A stretch of DNA of 64,000 nucleotides from a virus, in the IMG/VR virus record IMGVR_UViG_3300037148_000025, positions 25,415 to 89,414 of that record. One strand, 5' to 3'. Positions 15,801-64,000 of this stretch are shown here, piece after piece (position 1 is the first letter of the stretch; each line of letters starts with the position of its first letter). Below the pieces are notes generated by a model, which made no database searches, was not told where the DNA came from, and saw only the letters and a list, made by a program, of their open reading frames with translations. A program made the position numbers and the translations under genes.

Positions 15801-16871
15801 GGAGCAATCAATTTAACTTATCATCTTGATAGAATTTGGTACAGCATTGGAAATGTGGTTTATTGGACGACCGGTCCTGCCACTCCATGCGGAAATGGTA
15901 TAAATGGAACAGCACCATTAAACTTTTCATCTATGCCGTCTCTAGTAAAACGAATTGTTCCTACAGCATCTGGGGCATTTATTTTTACCGTTTCAGACAT
16001 CTATATTATTCAAGGGAACGGAACAGCGCAAAGTCCGATTCAGGGAGCACTTCCTATGGCTCCGGGGGTGGGATTGCTTAGTTATAATGCTTTAGATTTA
16101 CGCGGAACATTAATAGGGTTTTTTACAACAGACAATCAATTTGTTATTTTGAATCCCGAGAATGGTATAAGTTCTGCAAGTTTGCCGATTGGAGATCAGT
16201 TTCGGTTAACGAATGGAAATCCCGGACAGAACTGGAATCCTGCTAATGTATATGTAGCATGGCACGTTGAAGGGGAAGATCAGGCGTGGTATGTGGGAGA
16301 TGGTGCAACAGGTTGGTATAAATTGATGGATACACCGGCTCCTGAAAGCGGAAACACATGGTCGCCTTATTCTATTATCACAGGAGGAGCGGGAGCTATC
16401 CAAAGCGTTGAAGTGACTCCGGGAGTTCATCGTCTTTTAGTTGGACCTACCGGTACAGGAAGTATCACACAGAGAGATTTAACGGTATATTCCGATAGTG
16501 GCACATCATACCCTGCATATGCTACTATTGGTTCAGTGGTATTGGCCCAACCGGGTCAGATTGCTGAAGTAGCTTTTATTACAACAGAGTCTATAAAGGT
16601 TGGTTCTCCTCTTGTGATTGGACTTCTTGTAGACGAGTGTTTACCTTATTATACAGGACCAATTGATATTCTGAAGGTATGGGTAAACGATCCTCCAAAC
16701 TTAAAACCAAGTAGTTCTTTGTACAGTCAGCGTTTCTATTTGTCCGAGTTAAAAGATGAGACGGCGGCGATGCGCCATTGCCAGTTGCAAATCATATTTT
16801 CTCCGTATGATACAGTGGCCAATGAGTTGCTTTCAACAACCATTTTTGGCACTTTTTCGCAAGAATTATAA
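12807..16871 (+). CDS. Large tail nozzle/hub-like protein with inserted modules
   Basis: 1354 residues. The N-terminus (FFSGIWTNRSPLRDATTTRLIEHFYG then INKLTLARRP-like text) and the C-terminal third (LTYHLDRIWYSIGNVVYW; VAWHVEGEDQAWYVGDG) resemble podovirus tail nozzle proteins (T7 gp12 role). Between them lie at least four DSNGN-PTW-DGQVxW modules, one copy of the 75-residue beta module (near residues 426-512), and a PA14-like segment (NLFDDFSTSGGG, then PVAGTYTFSISHYDGMIW, about 590-750) of a carbohydrate-binding type. It would form the distal tail tube and expose adhesin domains. The modular reading is inference. Confidence 0.6.
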   Translation: MGNNLQLAGAQSQTQVKYSPLFVSRFFSGIWTNRSPLRDATTTRLIEHFYGQAGDALISGLNVEITNKLTLARRPGTSPLDSNSYDSPDRFYEFRLFDTSTEQINLMIDQANALYSLYKGGGSSSYPTYNGVKRLVFTKSAGAGQSYMQSVGNSLYWGDGVDNQKWLESLVVWSDGAQWNSSSYPYYTTFLIDPNGNVQQLVPIAIPVTDVAISANVLTITSSATLTSFLSTGMYVSFPENMNATFLNNQTVLLTGVTTNTFTASFTNVDYVGTETDIDAMQAYGGVNPASGSTVPTWSTVVPSSSNNFAGGVTLDGQVKWVNRGSAVKNWGIAPPTSQPLFDLGASSVSWGAGVFYSLVSVVVDSNGNLQQVTTPGLSGSSQPTWATTIGLTTSDGQVTWTMIQTVALGVPKSLTWEPNTEYTQSTTLNLTSIAVAVGGSTVYSGAITGGADNAFVTTPPTMFVITGAIDVVNNGVFPCTASTTTSITLTNPNGVSETSSSIVATIQGSFVIGSTYGTTGNINCLFMLGQNTQPSLIGSVKAYLYAGVHSGSGVGRFTLTHPTSTSSALASTLTQNSLDFAGAPESGSMFSWDNLFDDFSTSGGGANLTWDTVNAAGEVVSFNTPFSNFINTYELIILATLNVPVAGTYTFSISHYDGMIWGIGNGATSTGGSGYPNNQGQVVTAAEGYPNFGGTNGGTPGGGTYDPVTNTFSGSVGVTDTFQVTFPAPGNYPVEVDYSYWYHDGMQLNVMCNGDILANTSGGSGNPTSGTSEPIWPSWTVSNAPLYPTVTESSGQLTWYNLGPVTDFSWAANTTFTLPDTTIVDPNGYEEAPYRTGVTGAIAPTFSTGANSLTYDNPNLIWINEGIAATVKTGTLSTFNGGWTYWVALVDTLDDTVSNCSPASQVTGNFIGINGVFLEPGSGLPDKAVIDPQSDYVAIFRSTDGQSVPLLIPGQLSDWTVPLSVYLTDGYTDKTLDVGLNNEILGAIDGENTPPGAGAINLTYHLDRIWYSIGNVVYWTTGPATPCGNGINGTAPLNFSSMPSLVKRIVPTASGAFIFTVSDIYIIQGNGTAQSPIQGALPMAPGVGLLSYNALDLRGTLIGFFTTDNQFVILNPENGISSASLPIGDQFRLTNGNPGQNWNPANVYVAWHVEGEDQAWYVGDGATGWYKLMDTPAPESGNTWSPYSIITGGAGAIQSVEVTPGVHRLLVGPTGTGSITQRDLTVYSDSGTSYPAYATIGSVVLAQPGQIAEVAFITTESIKVGSPLVIGLLVDECLPYYTGPIDILKVWVNDPPNLKPSSSLYSQRFYLSELKDETAAMRHCQLQIIFSPYDTVANELLSTTIFGTFSQEL

Positions 16872-16884
16872 TAGGGGTATATAA

Positions 16885-17622
16885 ATGCCAACATTACAGG
16901 AATCTAGCACTAAAAATTTAGATATGAGTAATTATACCCCAGTTACCAATGAGGCTTCTCCTTCTATGGGTATACCGGCTCCATCTGTAAGCGTGGAGCC
17001 GGGAATAAACCCTTTTATGAGATGCCCGTTGCCTTCTCTTGGTCAAACTGACCCTGATTCTCAGAGGCAGTTTTATAAAGGAAGTTCTACTTCACAGACT
17101 AGATTTTTTACTCCTCCTGCACCAGTAAGTGGAAGTGGTACATATGTTACTAACAACTATTCGAATATTTCGAATAGTTCGAGTGGTTCAGGTGGGGGAA
17201 GTTCTAGTGGGGGAAGCGGAGGCAGCATAACGGGAATTACTGTAACACAGGCATCCCTTGTTGCAGCTAGTCTTGGACCCGGAGGTAAGTTTTCTGGGTC
17301 TATTACACTCAGTAAGTCATTCCAGCTTTTAGGATTGACCGCAAGTGCTCCTTGTCGTATTCAAATATATGGTTCACGGGTCGCTCAGCTTGGGGATTTA
17401 TATAGAGGTCTAGATGTTACTCCACCAGCAGGCTCTACTCAGAACATTATCACTGATGTGGTATTAGATACCTCTCCTTATACTTGGACATTTCAGGATC
17501 GTATGGGCTCTAATGGGGAGTCTCCTGTGACTGCAAGGGTATATGTTACTATCACAAATTTAGATATAACTACCGACAATATTACAGTGGGTATTTCATA
17601 CGTTCCATTGGCAACTAGTTAA
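16885..17622 (+). CDS. Tail-associated structural protein with Gly/Ser linker
   Basis: 245 residues: a Pro-rich N-terminal 95 residues, an Asn/Ser/Gly linker about 100-130, and a C-terminal beta domain (PCRIQIYGSRVAQLGDLYRG, then TTDNITVGISYVPL) of the type found at tips of phage fibres or baseplate proteins. It opens the fibre gene cluster. Function inferred from layout. Confidence 0.5.
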   Translation: MPTLQESSTKNLDMSNYTPVTNEASPSMGIPAPSVSVEPGINPFMRCPLPSLGQTDPDSQRQFYKGSSTSQTRFFTPPAPVSGSGTYVTNNYSNISNSSSGSGGGSSSGGSGGSITGITVTQASLVAASLGPGGKFSGSITLSKSFQLLGLTASAPCRIQIYGSRVAQLGDLYRGLDVTPPAGSTQNIITDVVLDTSPYTWTFQDRMGSNGESPVTARVYVTITNLDITTDNITVGISYVPLATS

Positions 17623-17631
17623 GGAGAATTT

Positions 17632-17910
17632 ATGAACCGCGAATGTATAAGTCCGGGTGGAGGAGTATACCCAATCACAGGTGATGCGACTTCAACGGCA
17701 GGTTCTCCTATAGTGAGAGTTGTTGGATTACAGGGAACTCCTGTTGCGAATGCGGGGTTATACTCAGGGCAAGTATTACAATATAGTGCGGACGAAAATT
17801 CATGGGTTCCTGTTTTGGAGGCGCAGATTTTATGCAATGGTGTTGCAATCTCGGATGACCCTAATATTAGTGTGAATGTAGTGAAGCCTGTTCTAGTAAA
17901 TGGAGTTTAA
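17632..17910 (+). CDS. Small tail protein
   Basis: 92 residues, beta-rich, Gly/Val/Pro-containing, no membrane segment. It has AAGGAGAATTT before the ATG and lies 2 bases ahead of the next gene in the fibre cluster. Likely a minor fibre or tail-tip component; no family recognised. Confidence 0.55.
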   Translation: MNRECISPGGGVYPITGDATSTAGSPIVRVVGLQGTPVANAGLYSGQVLQYSADENSWVPVLEAQILCNGVAISDDPNISVNVVKPVLVNGV

Positions 17911-17912
17911 GT

Positions 17913-18554
17913 ATGTCTATAAATTTGAATAATAATCTTCCTGCTCCCCCAACTGGAGGAACAAATGTAAATTTTCAGGAAGATGGCAGTGGAAATGTCA
18001 GTGCATATGTTGGTCTTGCTTCAAACAAGATTATAACTGCTCCGGTTGTGAAGTCATATGTGCTGTCGGCTGCTGCGACTGCGGCAGGAGGCTCTACGGT
18101 TTATACAGGGACAATTGTTGTTCCTGTAAACAGTTTAGTAGGATTGCTTTTCACAGTTTCCGGTTTCGTAGCCACTCCTGCAAATAACGGTACGTTTCTT
18201 TGCACCGCGAATAATGGGACCACCACAATTACCCTTGCAAATACGGCGGGGGTTTTTGAGGTTCAGGCAGCGGCGGCGATTTCCGGCTCTCTTATCCTTG
18301 ATTGTAGCCTTGGCAACAGCTTCTTTGTTAACGTGACTGCACCTATAACAAGCATGAGTATAACCAACCCGACAGATGGGCAGGAGATTACGATACTCTG
18401 GCAGCAAGATGTTACCGGACACGCTGTAGCAGTTGCTGGTAACCTATTAGGGACATTTAGTGTCACACTCACGGCAAACAAACATAGTTGTTATAAGTGG
18501 ACGTACAATTTAGCGGATACTAATTGGTATTTAATTAATTCTAATAATATGTAA
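17913..18554 (+). CDS. Tail protein carrying the shared 75-residue beta module
   Basis: 213 residues. Residues 49-124 are a clear copy of the module seen twice in the decoration protein: STVYTGTIV, NSLVGLLFTV, ANNGTFLCTANNGTTTITLAN. The C-terminal 80 residues (SITNPTDGQEITILWQQDVTGH, then YKWTYNLADTNWYL) resemble a common phage fibre end domain. Probably a short fibre or adhesin. Confidence 0.55.
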   Translation: MSINLNNNLPAPPTGGTNVNFQEDGSGNVSAYVGLASNKIITAPVVKSYVLSAAATAAGGSTVYTGTIVVPVNSLVGLLFTVSGFVATPANNGTFLCTANNGTTTITLANTAGVFEVQAAAAISGSLILDCSLGNSFFVNVTAPITSMSITNPTDGQEITILWQQDVTGHAVAVAGNLLGTFSVTLTANKHSCYKWTYNLADTNWYLINSNNM

Positions 18555-18565
18555 GGAGAAAAAAA

Positions 18566-19315
18566 ATGTCATTTGATAAGATTTTTTATGGACCGCCTAA
18601 TAGTGGTGCTCATGGTATTGGAGCATTAGGAGTAGATATTTCTAGCAAATCGTTGTATGTCTCAACAAGAAACGGTTGGGAACTGGCTGCTTCTGCAAAT
18701 CCACCAATAGCGACTGATTCCGCATTAGGTGTGGTAGAGCCTGATGGGACAACAATTACAGTTACAAGCGGTGGAGTGATTTCAGCCGTTGGCGGCGGGG
18801 GTAGCGGAGCATTGACACAGATCGGGAAGGTTGTGGTTGGTTCTCCTGTCCCAAGTATTGCTTTCAATGCTATACCGGGAAGCTATACTAACCTGCAACT
18901 TATTATCAACGGACAGAGCAGTTCTAACGTCGGTTCACAGGATGATGTTCATGCAACTTTCAATTCCGATAGCAGTGCTGATTATGATATGACATTTCTT
19001 GTGGGCAATGGTAGTTCTGCGGTAAGTTCACAGCTAACTGCTCAAGATTATTTTATTGTTGCTACACTTAATAATGTGGCAACAACAGGAAAAGCGGGGT
19101 GTGTAAACTGCTTAATTTTGTCGTATACAGGGACAGCATTCTACAAAGAGATAATGTGCAATCAGCATTTTTGGAATGCGGGCTCATTTTTGCAACCAAT
19201 GCTAGTTTCTGCGGATTGGAACAGCACGGATGCAATCACCAGTATTTCACTTGTGCTAAATAGCGGTAGCAATTTTGTGGCAGGAACGACAGCGACTCTT
19301 TATGGGATGCAGTAA
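18566..19315 (+). CDS. Tail fibre protein
   Basis: 249 residues. Around residues 50-80 it has the fibre hinge repeat ALGVVEPDGTTITVTSGGVIS followed by a glycine stretch, shared with the next gene. The C-terminal 160 residues form a beta-sandwich-like receptor-binding domain (IPGSYTNLQLIINGQ, then GTTATLYGMQ). Strong AAGGAG ribosome binding site. Confidence 0.65.
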   Translation: MSFDKIFYGPPNSGAHGIGALGVDISSKSLYVSTRNGWELAASANPPIATDSALGVVEPDGTTITVTSGGVISAVGGGGSGALTQIGKVVVGSPVPSIAFNAIPGSYTNLQLIINGQSSSNVGSQDDVHATFNSDSSADYDMTFLVGNGSSAVSSQLTAQDYFIVATLNNVATTGKAGCVNCLILSYTGTAFYKEIMCNQHFWNAGSFLQPMLVSADWNSTDAITSISLVLNSGSNFVAGTTATLYGMQ

Positions 19316-19355
19316 TAATTTTTCAGGATTTCACAGGTAGACCGGGGATTGTAAA

Positions 19356-19919
19356 ATGACAAAATGTAACGTGAACGGAATAAATGAAATCGATTTTACT
19401 TTCCCCGGAGCCAGTGCTGTAACAGTTAATGCCGGAGTTGCATCTCTTACAGTGTCTGAGCCTTCTGGTACTGCAAATGAAGTTATGGCTACACCGAATG
19501 GAAGTTCGGGTGTAGCCTCTTTACGCGCAATAGCTCCTACTGATTTACCAATTGCAACCACTTTAGCATTAGGCGTAGTTGAGCCGGACGGAACGACAAT
19601 TACTATCACAGGCGCAGGAGTTATTTCATCCGTTGGAGGGGGCGGAAGCAGTGTTTCTGTAGTTACCAAGACAGCTAATTATACGGCTGTGAACGGGAAT
19701 CTTGTACTTTGTAACACGACATCTGCAAGCTTCACTGTGACACTTCCTGCTCCTACACTGGATTCTACGGTATCAGTCAAGAAGATTTCAAGTGATGTAA
19801 ATACAGTGACTATAAGCCCGTCTTCTGGTTTGATTGAGGGTGTGGCTACGATGACGATCACAACTCTAGGTGATTGCATGGACCTTGCCGCAGATGGAAC
19901 AAATTTTTGGATTATCTAG
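19356..19919 (+). CDS. Tail fibre protein
   Basis: 187 residues with the same LGVVEPDGTTITITGAGVIS hinge near residue 70 and a short C-terminal domain (FTVTLPAPTLDSTVSVKK, then MDLAADGTNFWII) that is a common terminal cap in phage fibres. It is likely an alternative or accessory fibre next to the 18566 and 19934 products. Confidence 0.6.
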   Translation: MTKCNVNGINEIDFTFPGASAVTVNAGVASLTVSEPSGTANEVMATPNGSSGVASLRAIAPTDLPIATTLALGVVEPDGTTITITGAGVISSVGGGGSSVSVVTKTANYTAVNGNLVLCNTTSASFTVTLPAPTLDSTVSVKKISSDVNTVTISPSSGLIEGVATMTITTLGDCMDLAADGTNFWII

Positions 19920-19933
19920 TCAGGAGCAATTGA

Positions 19934-22300
19934 ATGAGCAACTTTGGCGGAATAAAAATTGAAGATGGAGCAGGGAACCCGATAGTATCGACGAGTGGTG
20001 CGCTTAATGTGAATGTCACAAATTCTTCGACGATTGGTGTACTAACGGCGGAAGCGTCGGGGGGTGCTGCTCCGGGAGCGACTTTCAATGGTTCTACAAA
20101 TATAGCGATTGACTACCACACTGTAGGGGCTGATGTGGCGGGTGCGGCGGCGGCAGTGACGCTGAGCGGTTTAGGGGGAGTTCCAACTAGTACTACGGTC
20201 AATGGTCATGCACTTAGCAGCAATGTCACAGTTTCAGCATCAGATATTACAACGGGTACTTTACCTCATGCACAGTTACCAACACTTTTGTCTGGAGATA
20301 TTCCTGCTAATGCGGCAAACACTTCGGGCACAGCATCCAATCTTAGTGGAACGCCAACTTTACCCTCTGGTACGAAGGCAGCTACACAGACTACAGGTGA
20401 TAATACAGCAGACCTTGCAACCGATGCTTTTGTAAATGCATCCATAACTGCATTGTCTCTTGGAACTGCTTCTACAAAGGCAACATCCTATTTCCAGACA
20501 GCACTTACTAACCCAGTTACAGGACCGGGCAGCGGTGCAACCGTTGGTCATCTAGCAGTTATGGGAAACACTTCAGGGACAAGTATCACCGACGGAGGGG
20601 CAGTTCCTGTAGGAACAGTTACTCTTAGCGGTTCTCCAGTTAGTCCTAATATTGCAGCATTCTCCTCATCTAGTGCAATAACGGCAGCTACTTCAGCCAA
20701 CATCCAGACAGCCATTGGTGCGAGTGTATATGATACCAGTGGAGCAGCAGCTACAGCACAAAGTAATGCAGAAACTTTCGCAGCTAACGCCAGCAATATA
20801 TCGTCTGGCACAGTTGGTATAGCATACCTGCCTACCGGAACTAGTTCAAGCACTGTAGTAAAAGGCGGAACAATTACAGCGGCTGGACCCATTGGAAGCA
20901 CAACAGCAATTCCCATATTAACATATAATGCAGCCGGACAGTTGACGGCGGTAACCACCGCTACCCCCGCCGTGAGTGCAGTTGCTGGTAAATCATTAAC
21001 AGGAAGTGGTGCGTCTATTCCTACGGGTCCAACATCTTCCACAAATGGAGATTTAGTTAGCTTTACTGGTGCAGCGGGTCAGATTGCCGATAGCGGTATT
21101 GTAGCCAGCAATGTTCCCTTGCTTAATGCAGCGAATTCGTTTACCAACGCCGGTACTACTACATTTCAGCAGGGTTCGTCTGGTATCGCCCTTGATGCCA
21201 CGACCCAGACCGTCGGCACGACGTATGGGACTGGGGGGTATTTAATCATCAACGCAGAAGGTCCGACATCGACAACTGGCGCATCAATATTTTTGGGTGG
21301 AAGCGCTCGTAGTGACGCAAATAAAAACGCGATCACGTTCAACGAAAACAACACAGAGTACGCACGGATTGATGGGAATTATACTGGGCATACGGCGGGC
21401 AACGTCGGCATCGGGACGACGGCACCAGGTCAAAAGCTGGATGTTTCAGGCAACATCAATGTAAACACCAACGGCACTCCTGCTCTCATTTCTACTTTCA
21501 AACCAACTTCTACTTCAGGAAACAACATCTTCATCGGTGGAGGTGGACAGAGTTCAGTGTATGACGGCACAAATGTATATACGGGTTCATATAATACGGC
21601 GGTAGGTATGAATGCTCTCCAGTCCAACACGACAGGCTACTACAACTCTGCGCAGGGGGTCGGAGCCCTTTACTCCAACACGACAGGCTACTACAACTCT
21701 GCGCAGGGGGTCAGTGCCCTTTACTCCAACACGACAGGCTACTACAACTCTGCGCAGGGGGCCATCGCCCTTCAATCCAACACGACAGGCTACTACAACT
21801 CTGCGCAGGGGGCCATCGCCCTTCAATTCAACACGACAGGCAGCAGCAACTCCGCGCAGGGGGCCGGAGCCCTTTACTCCAACACGACAGGCAGCAGCAA
21901 CTCCGCGCAGGGGGTCAGTGCCCTTTACTCCAACACGACAGGCAGCAGAAACTCCGCGCAGGGGTACCAGGCTGGCTACAATTCTGATGTCGCACTACAA
22001 ACAATGACCAACAGCACCTTCCTTGGTTATGGTGCTAACTCATCGGTAGACGGAATAACCAACTCAATGGCTCTTGGTAACGGTGCTCAGGTAACGGCAA
22101 GCAATCAGGTAGTTTTGGGAAATAGTGCGGTAACGAAGACGTTATTAAACGGCAACGTCGGCATCGGGACAACAACGCCGAACAGTCCTTTAGCTGTAGT
22201 TGGTCTTCCGTTATATTCAACTAATGCTCTTGCCATAGCAGGTGGACTTGCAGTAGGAGATTTTTACAGAGTCGCTGGTGTAGTATCAGTGGTCTATTAA
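19934..22300 (+). CDS. Long tail fibre with YadA-head-like repeats
   Basis: 788 residues. The first 400 residues are Thr/Ser/Ala/Gly-rich fibre shaft. NVGIGTTAPGQKLDVSG then introduces seven 17-residue NTTGYYNSAQG repeats that resemble trimeric adhesin heads. A second NVGIGTTTPNSPLAVVG strand leads to a compact end (LAIAGGLAVGDFYRVAGVV). No S74 chaperone domain is present. DNA from about 21170 to 22160 is more GC-rich than its surroundings, which suggests a tip acquired by recombination. Likely receptor binding. Confidence 0.75.
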   Translation: MSNFGGIKIEDGAGNPIVSTSGALNVNVTNSSTIGVLTAEASGGAAPGATFNGSTNIAIDYHTVGADVAGAAAAVTLSGLGGVPTSTTVNGHALSSNVTVSASDITTGTLPHAQLPTLLSGDIPANAANTSGTASNLSGTPTLPSGTKAATQTTGDNTADLATDAFVNASITALSLGTASTKATSYFQTALTNPVTGPGSGATVGHLAVMGNTSGTSITDGGAVPVGTVTLSGSPVSPNIAAFSSSSAITAATSANIQTAIGASVYDTSGAAATAQSNAETFAANASNISSGTVGIAYLPTGTSSSTVVKGGTITAAGPIGSTTAIPILTYNAAGQLTAVTTATPAVSAVAGKSLTGSGASIPTGPTSSTNGDLVSFTGAAGQIADSGIVASNVPLLNAANSFTNAGTTTFQQGSSGIALDATTQTVGTTYGTGGYLIINAEGPTSTTGASIFLGGSARSDANKNAITFNENNTEYARIDGNYTGHTAGNVGIGTTAPGQKLDVSGNINVNTNGTPALISTFKPTSTSGNNIFIGGGGQSSVYDGTNVYTGSYNTAVGMNALQSNTTGYYNSAQGVGALYSNTTGYYNSAQGVSALYSNTTGYYNSAQGAIALQSNTTGYYNSAQGAIALQFNTTGSSNSAQGAGALYSNTTGSSNSAQGVSALYSNTTGSRNSAQGYQAGYNSDVALQTMTNSTFLGYGANSSVDGITNSMALGNGAQVTASNQVVLGNSAVTKTLLNGNVGIGTTTPNSPLAVVGLPLYSTNALAIAGGLAVGDFYRVAGVVSVVY
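21614..21970 (+). repeat. Seven tandem 51-bp repeats in the fibre gene
   Basis: The unit encodes A-L-x-S-N-T-T-G-x-x-N-S-A-Q-G-x-x. Copies 1-4 carry YY and copies 5-7 SS or SR at the variable pair; positions 3, 16 and 17 also vary. Near-identical DNA units favour copy number change by slippage or recombination. Confidence 0.9.
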
Positions 22301-56851: not shown

Positions 56852-56880
56852 ATTGTACTACGGTTGTTAGTTAAAGTCAA
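56852..56880 (-). promoter_or_regulatory. Sigma70-type promoter
   Basis: Minus strand TTGACT (56880-56875), 17-base spacer, TACAAT (56857-56852); overlaps the 3' end of the phosphoribosyltransferase gene. Confidence 0.75.
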
Positions 56881-57334
56881 GAATCTCAAGCATGCTGCCA
56901 GCGCCAGAGGTTGTCAGCTTGTTATCTAAACTATTCGACAATTCGTTTACCTGCAAGACTCCTATACAACGGGCATCTGGAGCAAACTTATGAATAGCTT
57001 TCTGTATGTTCGTTGCCGTCTCTCCGCTCGATATAAGGTCATCCACTATAACATACTTCTTACATGCTCTGTTTCCTTCTACCCTATGAGAAGAGTGGCA
57101 ATTTCGTGTAGACTTTCTCACCATAATCAAGGGCTTATTGATCCGACTGGCAATCGCTGGAGCAATTAGTGCTCCCGACATCCCAGTAAATGCTATGCTG
57201 TCGAATTCTTTTGCATACTTTTTTAAAACTTTTGCCGCCAAGACATATCTATTTTTAGCTGCAACTGGATCGAGATAATACTTCAGGTAGTCACAAGTTT
57301 GGTACTCGGGAACATGTTTTGTAGTCTTTTTCAT
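56867..57334 (-). CDS. Type I phosphoribosyltransferase
   Basis: 155 residues. PRPP-binding motif YVIVDDLISSGET and an upstream flexible hood region (MVRKSTRNCHSSHRVEG). AFTGMSGALIAPAIAS fits the first binding loop. It would join a base to PRPP (orotate- or adenine-type) or act in salvage; the base cannot be told. Overlaps the recombinase gene by 4 bases. Confidence 0.85.
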   Translation of the reverse strand: MKKTTKHVPEYQTCDYLKYYLDPVAAKNRYVLAAKVLKKYAKEFDSIAFTGMSGALIAPAIASRINKPLIMVRKSTRNCHSSHRVEGNRACKKYVIVDDLISSGETATNIQKAIHKFAPDARCIGVLQVNELSNSLDNKLTTSGAGSMLEILDFN

Positions 57335-57852
57335 ACAACTGCTCCCGCAAATGCTTTGCTGGCACTTTCGTCAGATTCTTGCAGATACGCTCCTGTGCTG
57401 CCAATGTTCTTATGTCCCAGATACTGCCTTACTCTCTGAATGCCTATCTTGTCGATAGCAACCATCGCACAGGCATGTTTAAGAGCATGGGGGTGTAGTT
57501 TGTGCTTCGGAATCCCGGCACGCTGTCCGGCTCTTTGAAACATATTGTACACCCCAAATCTGGTGATTTTGAACAAACGCTCTTTAGACCCAAGAGTACC
57601 AAGAAGTTTGGTTAGACCTTCATACTCATCTAAATCAGGATCAGGGTGCTTAACGAACGGCTGGATAGTTTTAAGAGAACCTTTCAATCGTTGTACTCTC
57701 ACATAACCATCACGAATATCTTCTCCAGTAAGGTTTATTAGCTCCGACACTCTTAGCCCGTGGAGAAAACCCATTTTGATAAGCAACTTCCAGCGTTCGT
57801 TAGGAACCTCATGGATGAGCGCCTTGATCTCGATTGGAGTTAGTGCCTGCAT
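57331..57852 (-). CDS. Minimal tyrosine recombinase
   Basis: 173 residues, catalytic domain only, without the N-terminal DNA-binding half. R34 (HGLRVSEL), K57 (RLKGS), H122, LGHKNI (H147) and Y156 (TGAYLQ) are in order. The second catalytic Arg of the HxLR box is Lys 125 (HALKHA). It could cut and join DNA poorly, or act on hairpin ends or dimers. No excisionase or repressor seen, so lysogeny is not implied. Confidence 0.85.
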   Translation of the reverse strand: MQALTPIEIKALIHEVPNERWKLLIKMGFLHGLRVSELINLTGEDIRDGYVRVQRLKGSLKTIQPFVKHPDPDLDEYEGLTKLLGTLGSKERLFKITRFGVYNMFQRAGQRAGIPKHKLHPHALKHACAMVAIDKIGIQRVRQYLGHKNIGSTGAYLQESDESASKAFAGAVV

Positions 57853-59629: not shown

Positions 59630-60583
59630 CTACAGCTTCCAACCATACAGGCTACCGCCAACCTTCAAACCATTCGGGAGTTCCTTGAGGCCCGTGCAAC
59701 CGTAGAGAGACAGGTAACCGCCAACCTTCAAACCATTCGGGAGTGCCTTGAGGCCCGTGCAACTGTCGAGACACAGGCTACCGCCAACCTTAAAACCATC
59801 CGGGAGTGCCTTGAGGCCCGTGCAACCGAAGAGAGACAGGATACCGCCAACCTTCAAACCATCCGGGAGTTCCTTGAGGCCCGTGCAACCGTAGAGAGAC
59901 AGGTGACCGCTAACCTTCAAACCATCCGGGAATGCCTTGAGGCCCGTGCAACCGAAGAGAGACAGGTCACCGCTAACCTTCAAACCATCCGGGAGTGCCT
60001 TGAGGCCCGTGCAACCGCAGAGAGACAGTTTACCGCCAACCTTCAAACCATCCGGGAGTTCCTTGAGGCCCGTGCAACCGTTTAGATACAGGTCACCGCC
60101 AACCTTCAAACCATCCGGGAGTGCCTTGAGGCCCGTGCAACCGTCGAGAAACAGGTAACCGCCAACCTTCAAACCATCCGGGAGTGCCTTGAGGCCCGTG
60201 CAACCGTCGAGAAACAGGTAACCGCCAACCTTCAAACCATCCGGGAGTGCCTTGAGGCCCGTGCAATCGTAGAGAGACAGGTCACCGCCAACCTTCAAAC
60301 CCCTTTTGAACCGTTCCTGTAACGCCTCTCTAGTACGGGTTTCGCACGTTACCGCATCAAACCAACCCGGCATTATATCCTGATCGACTTTGTATTGCCA
60401 AGACGCAAAGTCCATCAAATCGGTTACGTTTTTTGTAGGCGATACTTCCACTCGAAGAACATTGGGACCGGCTACACCGTCTGCGTGAAGTGAATTCTCA
60501 CTGATGATGTCCTCGTGAGAATCACTCTCGTCGCACCAAAAAATCGAATCTTTCGTTAGTACAAAGCTTGCGAAGTTGCACAT
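59630..60583 (-). CDS. Leucine-rich-repeat protein, copy 1 (10 repeats)
   Basis: 317 residues. The first about 95 residues (MCNFASFVLTKDSIFWCDES) are a conserved phage domain of unknown role. Ten full 21-residue repeats (GLKVGGxLxLxGCTGLKxLPD) plus a partial one follow, forming a solenoid of LRR type. Variation is concentrated at the LxLx positions on the exposed face. Copy 2 at 62319 has the same N-terminal DNA. Probably a protein-binding surface; target unknown. Confidence 0.75.
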   Translation of the reverse strand: MCNFASFVLTKDSIFWCDESDSHEDIISENSLHADGVAGPNVLRVEVSPTKNVTDLMDFASWQYKVDQDIMPGWFDAVTCETRTREALQERFKRGLKVGGDLSLYDCTGLKALPDGLKVGGYLFLDGCTGLKALPDGLKVGGYLFLDGCTGLKALPDGLKVGGDLYLNGCTGLKELPDGLKVGGKLSLCGCTGLKALPDGLKVSGDLSLFGCTGLKAFPDGLKVSGHLSLYGCTGLKELPDGLKVGGILSLFGCTGLKALPDGFKVGGSLCLDSCTGLKALPNGLKVGGYLSLYGCTGLKELPNGLKVGGSLYGWKL

Positions 60584-60632
60584 TGTTTTTCTCCTCTCAA
60601 TTACTCTACCAAATCTTTGTTAGTTTGTCAAG
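60283..60632 (-). repeat. Direct repeat arm A (about 350 bp)
   Basis: By eye identical, base for base, to 62720-63069. Covers the N-terminal coding part, the start, the leader and the promoter of LRR copy 1. Recombination between the arms would remove about 2.4 kb. Confidence 0.85.
60603..60631 (-). promoter_or_regulatory. Sigma70-type promoter of LRR copy 1
   Basis: Minus strand TTGACA (60631-60626), 17-base spacer, TAGAGT (60608-60603), just before GAGAGGAG and the ATG at 60583. Confidence 0.75.
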
Positions 60633-60724
60633 TAAAAAATGAAAAATAACTCAATCTCTCGGCCCTTGTAGAATGCCTTGTAGCCATAGGTGTGTCCCTG
60701 ATTAGTTACCAGTATCTCAGTCAT
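60620..60724 (-). CDS. Tiny conserved phage protein (34 residues)
   Basis: A 34-residue frame starting MTEILVTNQGHTYGYKAFYKGREI, a pattern I associate with tiny phage genes. GGAGAGCG sits upstream and the start overlaps the previous stop. It runs into the promoter of the next gene. Function unknown. Confidence 0.55.
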   Translation of the reverse strand: MTEILVTNQGHTYGYKAFYKGREIELFFIFYLTN

Positions 60725-60935
60725 GGCGCTCTCCAAATGACTTGATCTCATACTCCCGGCAATAGCATACTCCGTCTTCTACAGCAGCCGGATCATTAGT
60801 AAAGACAGTGTAGATTGCTTTGTTAGCTGAGTCATAACGAACGCTCTTGATAGTTCCCAGTACATCGATACTAAAAATGATTACTCGATCACCGGGCAAA
60901 AACGTTGTTGACTTGTCCACTAATGTTTGTGTCAT
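60717..60935 (-). CDS. Small beta-rich hypothetical protein
   Basis: 72 residues. FLPGDRVIIFSIDVLGTIKSV looks like an SH3-like beta barrel. Start coupled to the upstream stop. Function unknown. Confidence 0.6.
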   Translation of the reverse strand: MTQTLVDKSTTFLPGDRVIIFSIDVLGTIKSVRYDSANKAIYTVFTNDPAAVEDGVCYCREYEIKSFGERHD

Positions 60936-61264
60936 TACTCTACCTCCACATATTCATCGCACAGTGTGAGTACCGCATCATAGCCCCTAGACTGTGCAGC
61001 CTTGTGCATGAACTCTTTGGCCCGTGAAGGTAAACCGGCTTGCTTAAGCGTACGGTTTACACGAGCAATGATAGAGAACACGTTGCCATCTTCGCCCACT
61101 AGCTTACAGGGCGGTTTCTCCCCGGCAATGCGCCTTCTTGCTAACTCTTTCCCAAGAACTTCTATGGCCCGTGTGTCTTCTCGGTCCATAGCATTCGCGT
61201 ATTCTCCAGACAGACGGTCCTCAGACCATGTGTCTATGTAAATGTAATAGCTCAAATCCGTCAT
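60935..61264 (-). CDS. Hypothetical phage protein
   Basis: 109 residues. LARRRIAGEKPPCKLVGEDGNVFSI, then ARVNRTLKQAGLPSRAKEF and YDAVLTLCDEYVEV is a common phage protein pattern. An AAGTACCAA block lies in its leader near 61280. Function unknown. Confidence 0.65.
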   Translation of the reverse strand: MTDLSYYIYIDTWSEDRLSGEYANAMDREDTRAIEVLGKELARRRIAGEKPPCKLVGEDGNVFSIIARVNRTLKQAGLPSRAKEFMHKAAQSRGYDAVLTLCDEYVEVE

Positions 61265-61309
61265 TCTCTGCCTCTTTCAAGTACCAAAACGGTTATAGAG
61301 ATTGTTTTA

Positions 61310-61495
61310 CTACGTTGCTGGATATTTCGGCGCTTCGATTGCTTCCAAGTCGGCCAAATATGCCTTAGCACTGGCAATGCGATTGGAAAGTTTAAGACGC
61401 TTGGTGTAGTTTGTTTCGGTTGATAGTGTATTGGTGTCCCGTGCGATTTCTGCACGGAAAAAGTCGGGCGTGTATGCCGGTAATCCAATGTTCAT
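61310..61495 (-). CDS. Small hypothetical protein
   Basis: 61 residues, AGAGGACAAA upstream of the ATG. Helical end (SNRIASAKAYLADLEAIEA). Function unknown. Confidence 0.55.
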   Translation of the reverse strand: MNIGLPAYTPDFFRAEIARDTNTLSTETNYTKRLKLSNRIASAKAYLADLEAIEAPKYPAT

Positions 61496-61551
61496 TTTGT
61501 CCTCTCAGTTCTTGGTAAAATGTTGTGGAGACTTTCAGTCTCGTTGCTGCG

Positions 61552-61800
61552 TTAGATGAAAAGAGTGTCAGCGTGGAAGTGAAGGATTAAAATTGATTCT
61601 TGCTTGTTTGCAACCTTGACCTCTTGTGCAATTGTCTCAACTACTTCGGGACCAACGTTCACAAGGTCGATTGCAAGGCTGTCTTCCCACTCTCCCTTGT
61701 ACATTCCGGAACCATACGTCAAGGTTGCTCCCATAACGTGACGTGCAAGAATAGCTTCAATCGAATCACGGTTTACATCTTCGGTTAGAATTCTGTACAT
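61552..61800 (-). CDS. Small hypothetical phage protein
   Basis: 82 residues from the ATG at 61800 (GGAGAAAAG upstream). MYRILTEDVNRDSIEAIL, then GMYKGEWEDSLAIDLV resembles phage proteins of nucleoside or early modules, not firmly placed. Confidence 0.6.
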   Translation of the reverse strand: MYRILTEDVNRDSIEAILARHVMGATLTYGSGMYKGEWEDSLAIDLVNVGPEVVETIAQEVKVANKQESILILHFHADTLFI

Positions 61801-61836
61801 CTTTTCTCCAATCAGAAAGCTTACTTGCTCTCCCAT

Positions 61837-61966
61837 AGCCGCTCCTAGATGTGTTTAAGTAACGCTGCATTGGAATTCAATCCGTCTTTAGGCGTCACCG
61901 CATTACCATTAGAGCGGCTATGGCAGAGCACGTGTGTCTTACTCTGCCAGTTGTCTTACTTCTCCG
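61837..61966 (-). promoter_or_regulatory. Structured non-coding segment
   Basis: A 7-bp hairpin GGCAGAG (61922-61928) with CTCTGCC (61942-61948), and a larger inverted pair (GCCGCTC near 61840 with GAGCGGC near 61912). The string TATGGCAGAG is shared with the minus strand of the 58687-58832 leader. No gene with a good start signal. Confidence 0.4.
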
Positions 61967-62218
61967 TTAGGTTACAAAGAACCGTGTAGGCTTAGTTTCA
62001 GACTTTTCAGCCGTCTTCGCTTCGGCCTGTTCGATGTTATACTCGGCCTGTGCCATCTGGTCAAGTACCTCAGCGTTTGCGGACAATGCTTCTTTAGCAT
62101 CTTCCAGAGAATTCGTGTATATGCCAGCTTCTAGCATGTCCTCTTCTAGCTTAGTGACTGCCAGAAGTGTAATCTGTGCGAGTATTGCTAGCATCCCCAG
62201 TTGTCCAGAACGTTTCAT
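61967..62218 (-). CDS. Small helical hypothetical protein
   Basis: 83 residues, AAAGGAGAGATC upstream. Hydrophobic start (LGMLAILAQITLLAV) then Glu/Ala-rich coiled coil; may be membrane-anchored. Function unknown. Confidence 0.6.
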   Translation of the reverse strand: MKRSGQLGMLAILAQITLLAVTKLEEDMLEAGIYTNSLEDAKEALSANAEVLDQMAQAEYNIEQAEAKTAEKSETKPTRFFVT

Positions 62219-62318
62219 GATCTCTCCTTTTCGGTTTGTACTGCGTTAACTTTTCCTTACATTCAAAGTGTCTCACACTTTGTAAAACTTGTCAAGTTTG
62301 TTTCCTTGCCATTGACTA

Positions 62319-63020
62319 CTACCTCTTCCAACCATACAGGTTACCGCCAACCTTCAAACCCTTCGGGAGTGCCTTGAGGCCCGTGCAACCGTTGAGAGAC
62401 AGGCCACCGCTAACCTTCAAACCATCCGGGAGTGCCTTGAGGCCCGTGCAACCGTCGAGAAGCAGGTCACCGCCAACCTTCAAATCATCCGGGAGTGTCT
62501 TGAGGCCCGTGCAACCGTCGAGAGACAGGCTACCGCCAACCTTCAAAACATCCGGGAGTGTCTTGAGGCCCGTGCAACCGTCGAGACACAGGTAACCGCC
62601 AACCTTCAAACCATCCGGGAGTGCCTTGAGGCCCGTGCAACCGTCGAGATACAGGTAACCGCCAACCTTCAAACCATTCGGGAGTTCCTTGAGGCCCGTG
62701 CAACCGTTTAGATACAGGCTACCGCCAACCTTCAAACCCCTTTTGAACCGTTCCTGTAACGCCTCTCTAGTACGGGTTTCGCACGTTACCGCATCAAACC
62801 AACCCGGCATTATATCCTGATCGACTTTGTATTGCCAAGACGCAAAGTCCATCAAATCGGTTACGTTTTTTGTAGGCGATACTTCCACTCGAAGAACATT
62901 GGGACCGGCTACACCGTCTGCGTGAAGTGAATTCTCACTGATGATGTCCTCGTGAGAATCACTCTCGTCGCACCAAAAAATCGAATCTTTCGTTAGTACA
63001 AAGCTTGCGAAGTTGCACAT
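62319..63020 (-). CDS. Leucine-rich-repeat protein, copy 2 (6 repeats)
   Basis: 233 residues. The N-terminal domain is identical to copy 1 up to the first repeat, then six full 21-residue LRR units and a partial one ending NLYGWKR. The repeat order and the exposed residues differ from copy 1, and the flanking 3' bases (GTTTCCTTGCCATTGACTAC) are also shared. Function as for copy 1. Confidence 0.75.
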   Translation of the reverse strand: MCNFASFVLTKDSIFWCDESDSHEDIISENSLHADGVAGPNVLRVEVSPTKNVTDLMDFASWQYKVDQDIMPGWFDAVTCETRTREALQERFKRGLKVGGSLYLNGCTGLKELPNGLKVGGYLYLDGCTGLKALPDGLKVGGYLCLDGCTGLKTLPDVLKVGGSLSLDGCTGLKTLPDDLKVGGDLLLDGCTGLKALPDGLKVSGGLSLNGCTGLKALPKGLKVGGNLYGWKR

Positions 63021-63069
63021 TGTTTTTCTCCTCTCAATTACTCTACCAAATCTTTGTTAGTTTGTCAAG
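62720..63069 (-). repeat. Direct repeat arm B (about 350 bp)
   Basis: Matches 60283-60632 by eye without a difference. Covers the N-terminal part, leader and promoter of LRR copy 2. Confidence 0.85.
63040..63068 (-). promoter_or_regulatory. Sigma70-type promoter of LRR copy 2
   Basis: Minus strand TTGACA (63068-63063), 17-base spacer, TAGAGT (63045-63040); same sequence as the copy 1 promoter. Confidence 0.75.
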
Positions 63070-63862: not shown

Positions 63863-64000
63863 CCGGACGCGCTACAGGCTAACGTCGTGCCTTGCCCATG
63901 ATGGTTTACCACCATCCACGGTCCCGGACGCGCTACAGGCTAACGTCGTGCCTTGCCCATGATGGTTTACCACCATCCACGGTCCCGGACGCGCTACAGG
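63863..64000. repeat. 61-bp tandem repeat running off the window
   Basis: Two identical full units (63863-63923, 63924-63984) and 16 bases of a third. Each unit is GC-rich and holds a hairpin GATGGT-TTACC-ACCATC and the block CGGACGCGCTACAGG. No reading frame is kept through units (61 is not a multiple of 3). Candidate terminal, origin or regulatory iteron. Confidence 0.9.

Follow-up and report, generated by a model that had tools for sequence, protein, structure and literature searches.

Two minus-strand genes of an 89,414-bp virus record (IMGVR_UViG_3300037148_000025, hereafter G000) begin with the same sequence and continue into leucine-rich repeat (LRR) arrays that differ in length and composition, which raises the question of whether these arrays recombine to generate binding diversity and, if so, against which partners. 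We analysed bases 25415–89414 of this record ('the window', 64,000 nucleotides); the features of the locus are listed in Table 1.

The original prediction held that the two genes share an identical promoter and N-terminus of roughly 350 bp, followed by 10 and 6 LRR units. The common block is in fact exactly 349 bp long with no mismatches, covering 49 bp 5′ of the ATG and 300 bp (100 codons) of coding sequence and including a promoter-like TTGACA-17-TAGAGT site and the ribosome-binding sequence GAGAGGAG. The unit counts proved correct as well: Tandem Repeats Finder detects a period of 63 bp with 10.4 copies (92% matches) in gene A and 6.4 copies (91% matches) in gene B, corresponding to 10 and 6 full units of 21 aa, with each array ending in the partial cap GLKVGGxLYGWK[L/R]. 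The stop codon and ~27 bp beyond it are also common to A and B, a feature that the prediction had not mentioned. Between the two genes, a 94-aa ORF (61552–61836) shows weak similarity, below threshold, to the SAM lyase family (PF23780, E 0.011) and is a possible anti-restriction gene.

Table 1. Features of the head-LRR locus (positions in the window).
Feature	Position	Strand	Remarks
Gene A	59630..60583	-	317-aa ORF: head, 10 full LRR units and partial cap; apparently chimeric relative to G001
Gene B	62319..63020	-	233-aa ORF: head, 6 full LRR units and partial cap; identical in G001
Head domain, gene A	60302..60583	-	Codons 1–94; identical to gene B head; in family alignment
Head domain, gene B	62739..63020	-	Codons 1–94; identical to gene A head; in family alignment
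LRR array, gene A	59672..60301	-	Ten 63-bp units
LRR array, gene B	62361..62738	-	Six 63-bp units
349-bp A/B-identical block, gene A copy	60284..60632	-	No mismatch to gene B copy
349-bp A/B-identical block, gene B copy	62721..63069	-	No mismatch to gene A copy
Promoter-like site, gene A	60603..60631	-	TTGACA-17-TAGAGT; consensus match only
Promoter-like site, gene B	63040..63068	-	TTGACA-17-TAGAGT; consensus match only
Recombination interval, gene A	59975..60080	-	Same sequence in G001 copies 2 and 5, private base 60060 excepted; putative change of parent, copy 2 to copy 5

The units follow the consensus GLKVGGxLxLxGCTGLKxLPx and form the tandem LxLxx(N/C)xL repeats and the solenoid that characterize LRR proteins. 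The Pfam family PF23952 (LRR_EndoS) matches gene A with 34.9 bits (cutoff 27.9) and gene B just under the cutoff. The AF2 model of gene B, head and solenoid included, is confident (mean pLDDT 92.6), and both its best fold matches in the PDB and those in the BFVD are LRR proteins. Effector LRRs, plant NLRs and the like were matched only through the common repeat type, and a weak, short JAB match reported by PADLOC inside the gene A repeats was taken as chance. LRRs were also seen in a 208-kb phage contig (L002:5818–12129), in a 2103-aa protein that carries them together with other domains between many EAFRAGNRARKKES-like linkers and resembles a polyprotein with repeated junctions.

The head is a different matter. 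Profile searches with its residues 1–93 returned no sequence matches in Pfam, NCBIfam or the PDB and a single weak PHROGs match, in one of 44 members, while a fold search with its confident model (pLDDT 91) yielded nothing below E 0.7. On these searches we rejected an assignment to a known domain, and among open-access papers we found none on this head or on recombining phage LRR arrays; relative to these libraries and this literature, the head appears to be a new domain. Residues M1, C2, S6, H23, E46, P49, Q68, D69, P72 and W74 are invariant in the 44 members. The invariant MC start prompted us to consider an N-terminal-cysteine enzyme of the Ntn hydrolase or SRAP type, which no fold match supported and which we retain as a lead only.

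Head profile scans recovered 42 viral and 28 genome loci (~70, some of them duplicates of one another). LRR arrays follow the head in the window genes and in L036, CTALTELKA-type arrays in L037, L039–L041 and L074 (with similar ones in L035 and L043), and GSASI-, YDSATV- or SSQVGEM-type arrays in many Clostridia, and some heads precede a DUF6273-type domain ending in GVRPFF. Since related phages place a different array type or a DUF6273-type domain behind one and the same head, the variable module appears to be interchangeable. The locus thus goes beyond the duplicated gene of the original prediction, being part of a gene family with five members in G001 (see below), in which head and repeat are separable modules. 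Several head genes (L033, L035, L037, L041, L043 and L074) are located at the ends of contigs, which is what one would expect of repeat arrays that interrupt short-read assembly; the family is probably undercounted. In G024, a relative of the window phage (DnaB 53% identical), two genes join the head to other types of repeat, and one of them (L039) adjoins a tyrosine recombinase gene resembling that at window positions 57331–57852. This arrangement, which the window region shares, suggests that modules have been exchanged at a comparable locus. The corresponding part of the window (56867–57852) encodes a small tyrosine recombinase (PF00589) and a phosphoribosyltransferase-like protein.

In ten virus records, DUF6273-type head genes are found ~1 kb from a reverse transcriptase gene (RVT_1), and 195 of the 201 core mismatches between the template/variable pairs of head-family relatives (16 distinct VRs) fall at a template A. 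Judged by this linkage and adenine specificity, the DUF6273-type relatives are targets of diversity-generating retroelements (DGRs), and their presence on the same head offers an independent, sequence-based pointer to diversified binding.

The same relatives bring up the main functional alternative, namely that A and B are virion or cell-surface adhesins whose variable modules bind host receptors or surface glycans. The majority of phage DGR targets described so far have structural or receptor-binding roles (PMC8144416; PMC10743442), receptor binding has been proposed for the DUF6273-type targets of gut phages (PMC10743442), and LRR and C-lectin-like folds would both fit extracellular ligands. 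However, neither the head nor genes A and B have structural PHROG matches, no signal peptide is visible in A or B by eye, and the two genes belong to an accessory region on the minus strand, where they have promoter-like sites of their own, away from the plus-strand structural module. We regard an adhesin role as the less likely reading and, from the accessory minus-strand location, the separate promoter-like sites and the lack of a visible signal peptide, infer that these proteins act inside the cell, against host or rival-phage proteins. A 51-bp tandem repeat (21623–21964, 6.7 copies) lies within a virion structural, tail-spike-like gene.

Evidence on how the arrays change comes from a near-identical phage record, IMGVR_UViG_3300048503_000010 (G001; 90,016 bp), which shows no differences from G000 over one 20,000-bp stretch and 99–100% identity over most others. 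G001 carries five copies of the head-LRR gene in total, gene B being unchanged among them. Units 1–5 of gene A and its upstream side correspond to G001 copy 2, the exceptions being private base 60060 and one additional C in the G001 head, whereas units 6–10, the cap and the downstream sequence correspond to copy 5 (units 12–16), with no mismatches over ~8 kb past the join. The switch is centred on the unit KLSLCGC, which is identical in unit 5 of copy 2 and units 10 and 11 of copy 5. From the comparison of these two assemblies, gene A appears to be a homologous join of two G001 copies inside their arrays, in line with the repeat recombination that had been predicted. Indels resembling homopolymer errors are present in G001 copies 2, 3 and 4, whose sequences were left uncorrected. 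At the gene A locus G001 is 4.7 kb longer and carries additional copies and other ORFs, and this difference may reflect a deletion in G000 or an expansion in G001. The additional G001 sequence, absent from G000, includes an HNH endonuclease gene (PF13392, L009:6147–6503) between LRR copies and, at L009:5414, the same promoter and ribosome-binding module ahead of an unrelated gene (MSNPGEK...).

Could the chimeric gene A have arisen in assembly, through reads from a five-copy locus like that of G001 being misjoined across an identical unit? Both parents do have the same sequence over the 106 bp that contain the join, a further tandem repeat forms the end of G000, as is common in short-read assemblies, and several head-family genes sit at contig ends. 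Against this, the private base 60060, in unit 4 of gene A, is found in neither G001 parental copy, and the two records differ in further regions, for example at 16331–19533 in the structural-module region, where identity is 98%, so that they represent distinct strains. Array changes were also seen elsewhere. A third contig, L025 (IMGVR_UViG_3300050031_000008), starts within the array and is identical to G000 over 3752 bp from unit HLSLYGC onward, but differs at 2 of the 32 bp immediately before that unit, which indicates that a different array join exists at this locus. In a separate lineage, where beta-solenoid-like repeats follow the same head, L064 and L066 are distinguished by the clean, in-frame loss of six 9-aa units and are 99.96% identical beyond the array difference, on its downstream side. 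We therefore consider a misassembly improbable. Scans of viral_contigs with the flanking genes found no strains further to G001 and the 3300050031 contig. As to the repeat at the end of the window (63863–64000), it has a 61-bp period and 2.3 copies and is also present at the start of G000; the same place in G001 (L009:305–1100) holds 13 copies, and the site is an assembly break point and possibly an origin or terminus element.

The divergence of the units themselves is unevenly distributed. Positions 7, 9 and 11 account for 52% of all amino acid differences among the 15 distinct units of the window, a concentration reached by only 1 of the 1330 position triples (p = 0.00075). We take these positions, by canonical LRR numbering, to be the concave-strand residues in x7-L8-x9-L10-x11; strand residues between the core leucines of an LRR are its usual ligand surface. 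Divergence thus appears to concentrate at the LRR binding surface, which agrees with the expectation that the units differ mainly at exposed positions. For the distinct window units, pN/pS is ~80 at the three positions and 7.7 overall (pN 0.12, pS 0.016), and with the G001 units added the same positions account for 47% of differences, with pN/pS of 48 there and 3.5 overall; these ratios are descriptive and do not amount to a calibrated test of selection, as silent sites have probably been homogenised by conversion. Other arrays of the head family show a similar pattern (pN/pS 68 in L064; no silent change in L040), while in the LRR array of L036 amino acid change is not in excess (pN/pS 0.66). 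Sixty clean units from seven genes comprise 37 distinct sequences, and exact units reappear across different genes and as tandem neighbours. Fixed arrays in all relatives and an absence of surface divergence had been named as the outcomes that would speak against the original prediction; the arrays vary among relatives and the divergence does fall on the presumed surface.

Passive instability, in which recombination and slippage alter the arrays without any binding function, would be favoured by the readiness of ~92% similar 63-bp repeats to recombine and by the identical neighbouring units, but a neutral array would not focus its changes on three codons and leave silent sites nearly unchanged, and we give this explanation little credence. 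Mutation of the LRR units by a DGR in trans, as the use of DGRs by same-head relatives and the mostly NNC codons 7 and 11 (derivable from AAC templates) might suggest, is scarcely credible, given the poor fit of codons 9 and 18 and of the AAA, AAG and TTA codons and the failure of an RVT_1 search (E <= 1) to find a reverse transcriptase in G000 or G001, which led us to reject the window genes as DGR targets. In the head family at large, a reverse transcriptase was absent from all six array-type virus records checked.

On balance, A and B are probably accessory proteins of a multigene family that combine a constant head with interchangeable hypervariable binding modules, diversified by array recombination here and by retroelement mutagenesis elsewhere. 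In such a system, the head of ~93 aa would stay fixed while the binding module at the C-terminus, an LRR solenoid in this phage, varies. Homologous recombination between 63-bp units, within and between gene copies, would lengthen, shorten and join arrays, and selection would retain hardly any point changes other than those that alter the surface of the LRR strands. A phage population would then hold a shifting set of binding surfaces on one head, related phages using the same head with other arrays or with a DUF6273-type domain mutated by a DGR. We infer that the variable modules bind proteins, the presumed ligands being variable host (possibly defence) proteins or those of competing phages. 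More tentatively, and with less confidence than in the two-part organization itself, the previously undescribed head might be a common chassis to which different phages have joined unrelated diversification engines, either recombining LRR or beta-solenoid-like arrays or retroelement mutagenesis of a C-lectin-like domain, so as to build hypervariable binders for an antibody-like, probably intracellular, tracking of changing host or competitor proteins. If the targets are indeed intracellular, phages would keep a diversity generator against host or rival proteins, beyond surface receptors. The head also offers a means of searching for many binders of this kind, and its partners could reveal what phages must track fast.

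Most of the hypervariation described in phages results from retroelements that mutate receptor-binding proteins. In the present case, near-identical phages differ by an apparently exact recombination inside a binder array, and one conserved head ties array-type to retroelement-type diversification. The repeat type of A and B is shared by Edwardsiella phage Edno5_0047, uncultured Caudovirales LRR proteins and PF23952; Edno5_0047 is 58% identical over its LRR part but lacks this head. The DUF6273 or C-type-lectin-like DGR targets of gut phages (PMC11792537; PMC10743442) resemble the Clostridia-provirus head members, which combine a DUF6273-type domain with a reverse transcriptase gene close by and with template/variable differences specific to adenines. 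The window genes, in contrast, carry LRR arrays and have no detected reverse transcriptase, and the N-terminal domains of the gut-phage targets (tentaclin Ig domains, tail-fibre-like domains) differ from this head. The closest parallel in the mode of working is provided by the variable lymphocyte receptors of jawless vertebrates, whose diversity is likewise LRR-based (PMC5006420): in both cases different LRR units are set on a constant frame and vary at the strand surface, and differing unit combinations on such a frame are found in gene A of G000 compared with G001 copies 2 and 5, and in the L025 allele. We claim no homology between the two; no cassette-assembly machinery like that of the lymphocyte receptors was found for the phage genes, and the phage version would instead operate through recombination of units between paralogous arrays.
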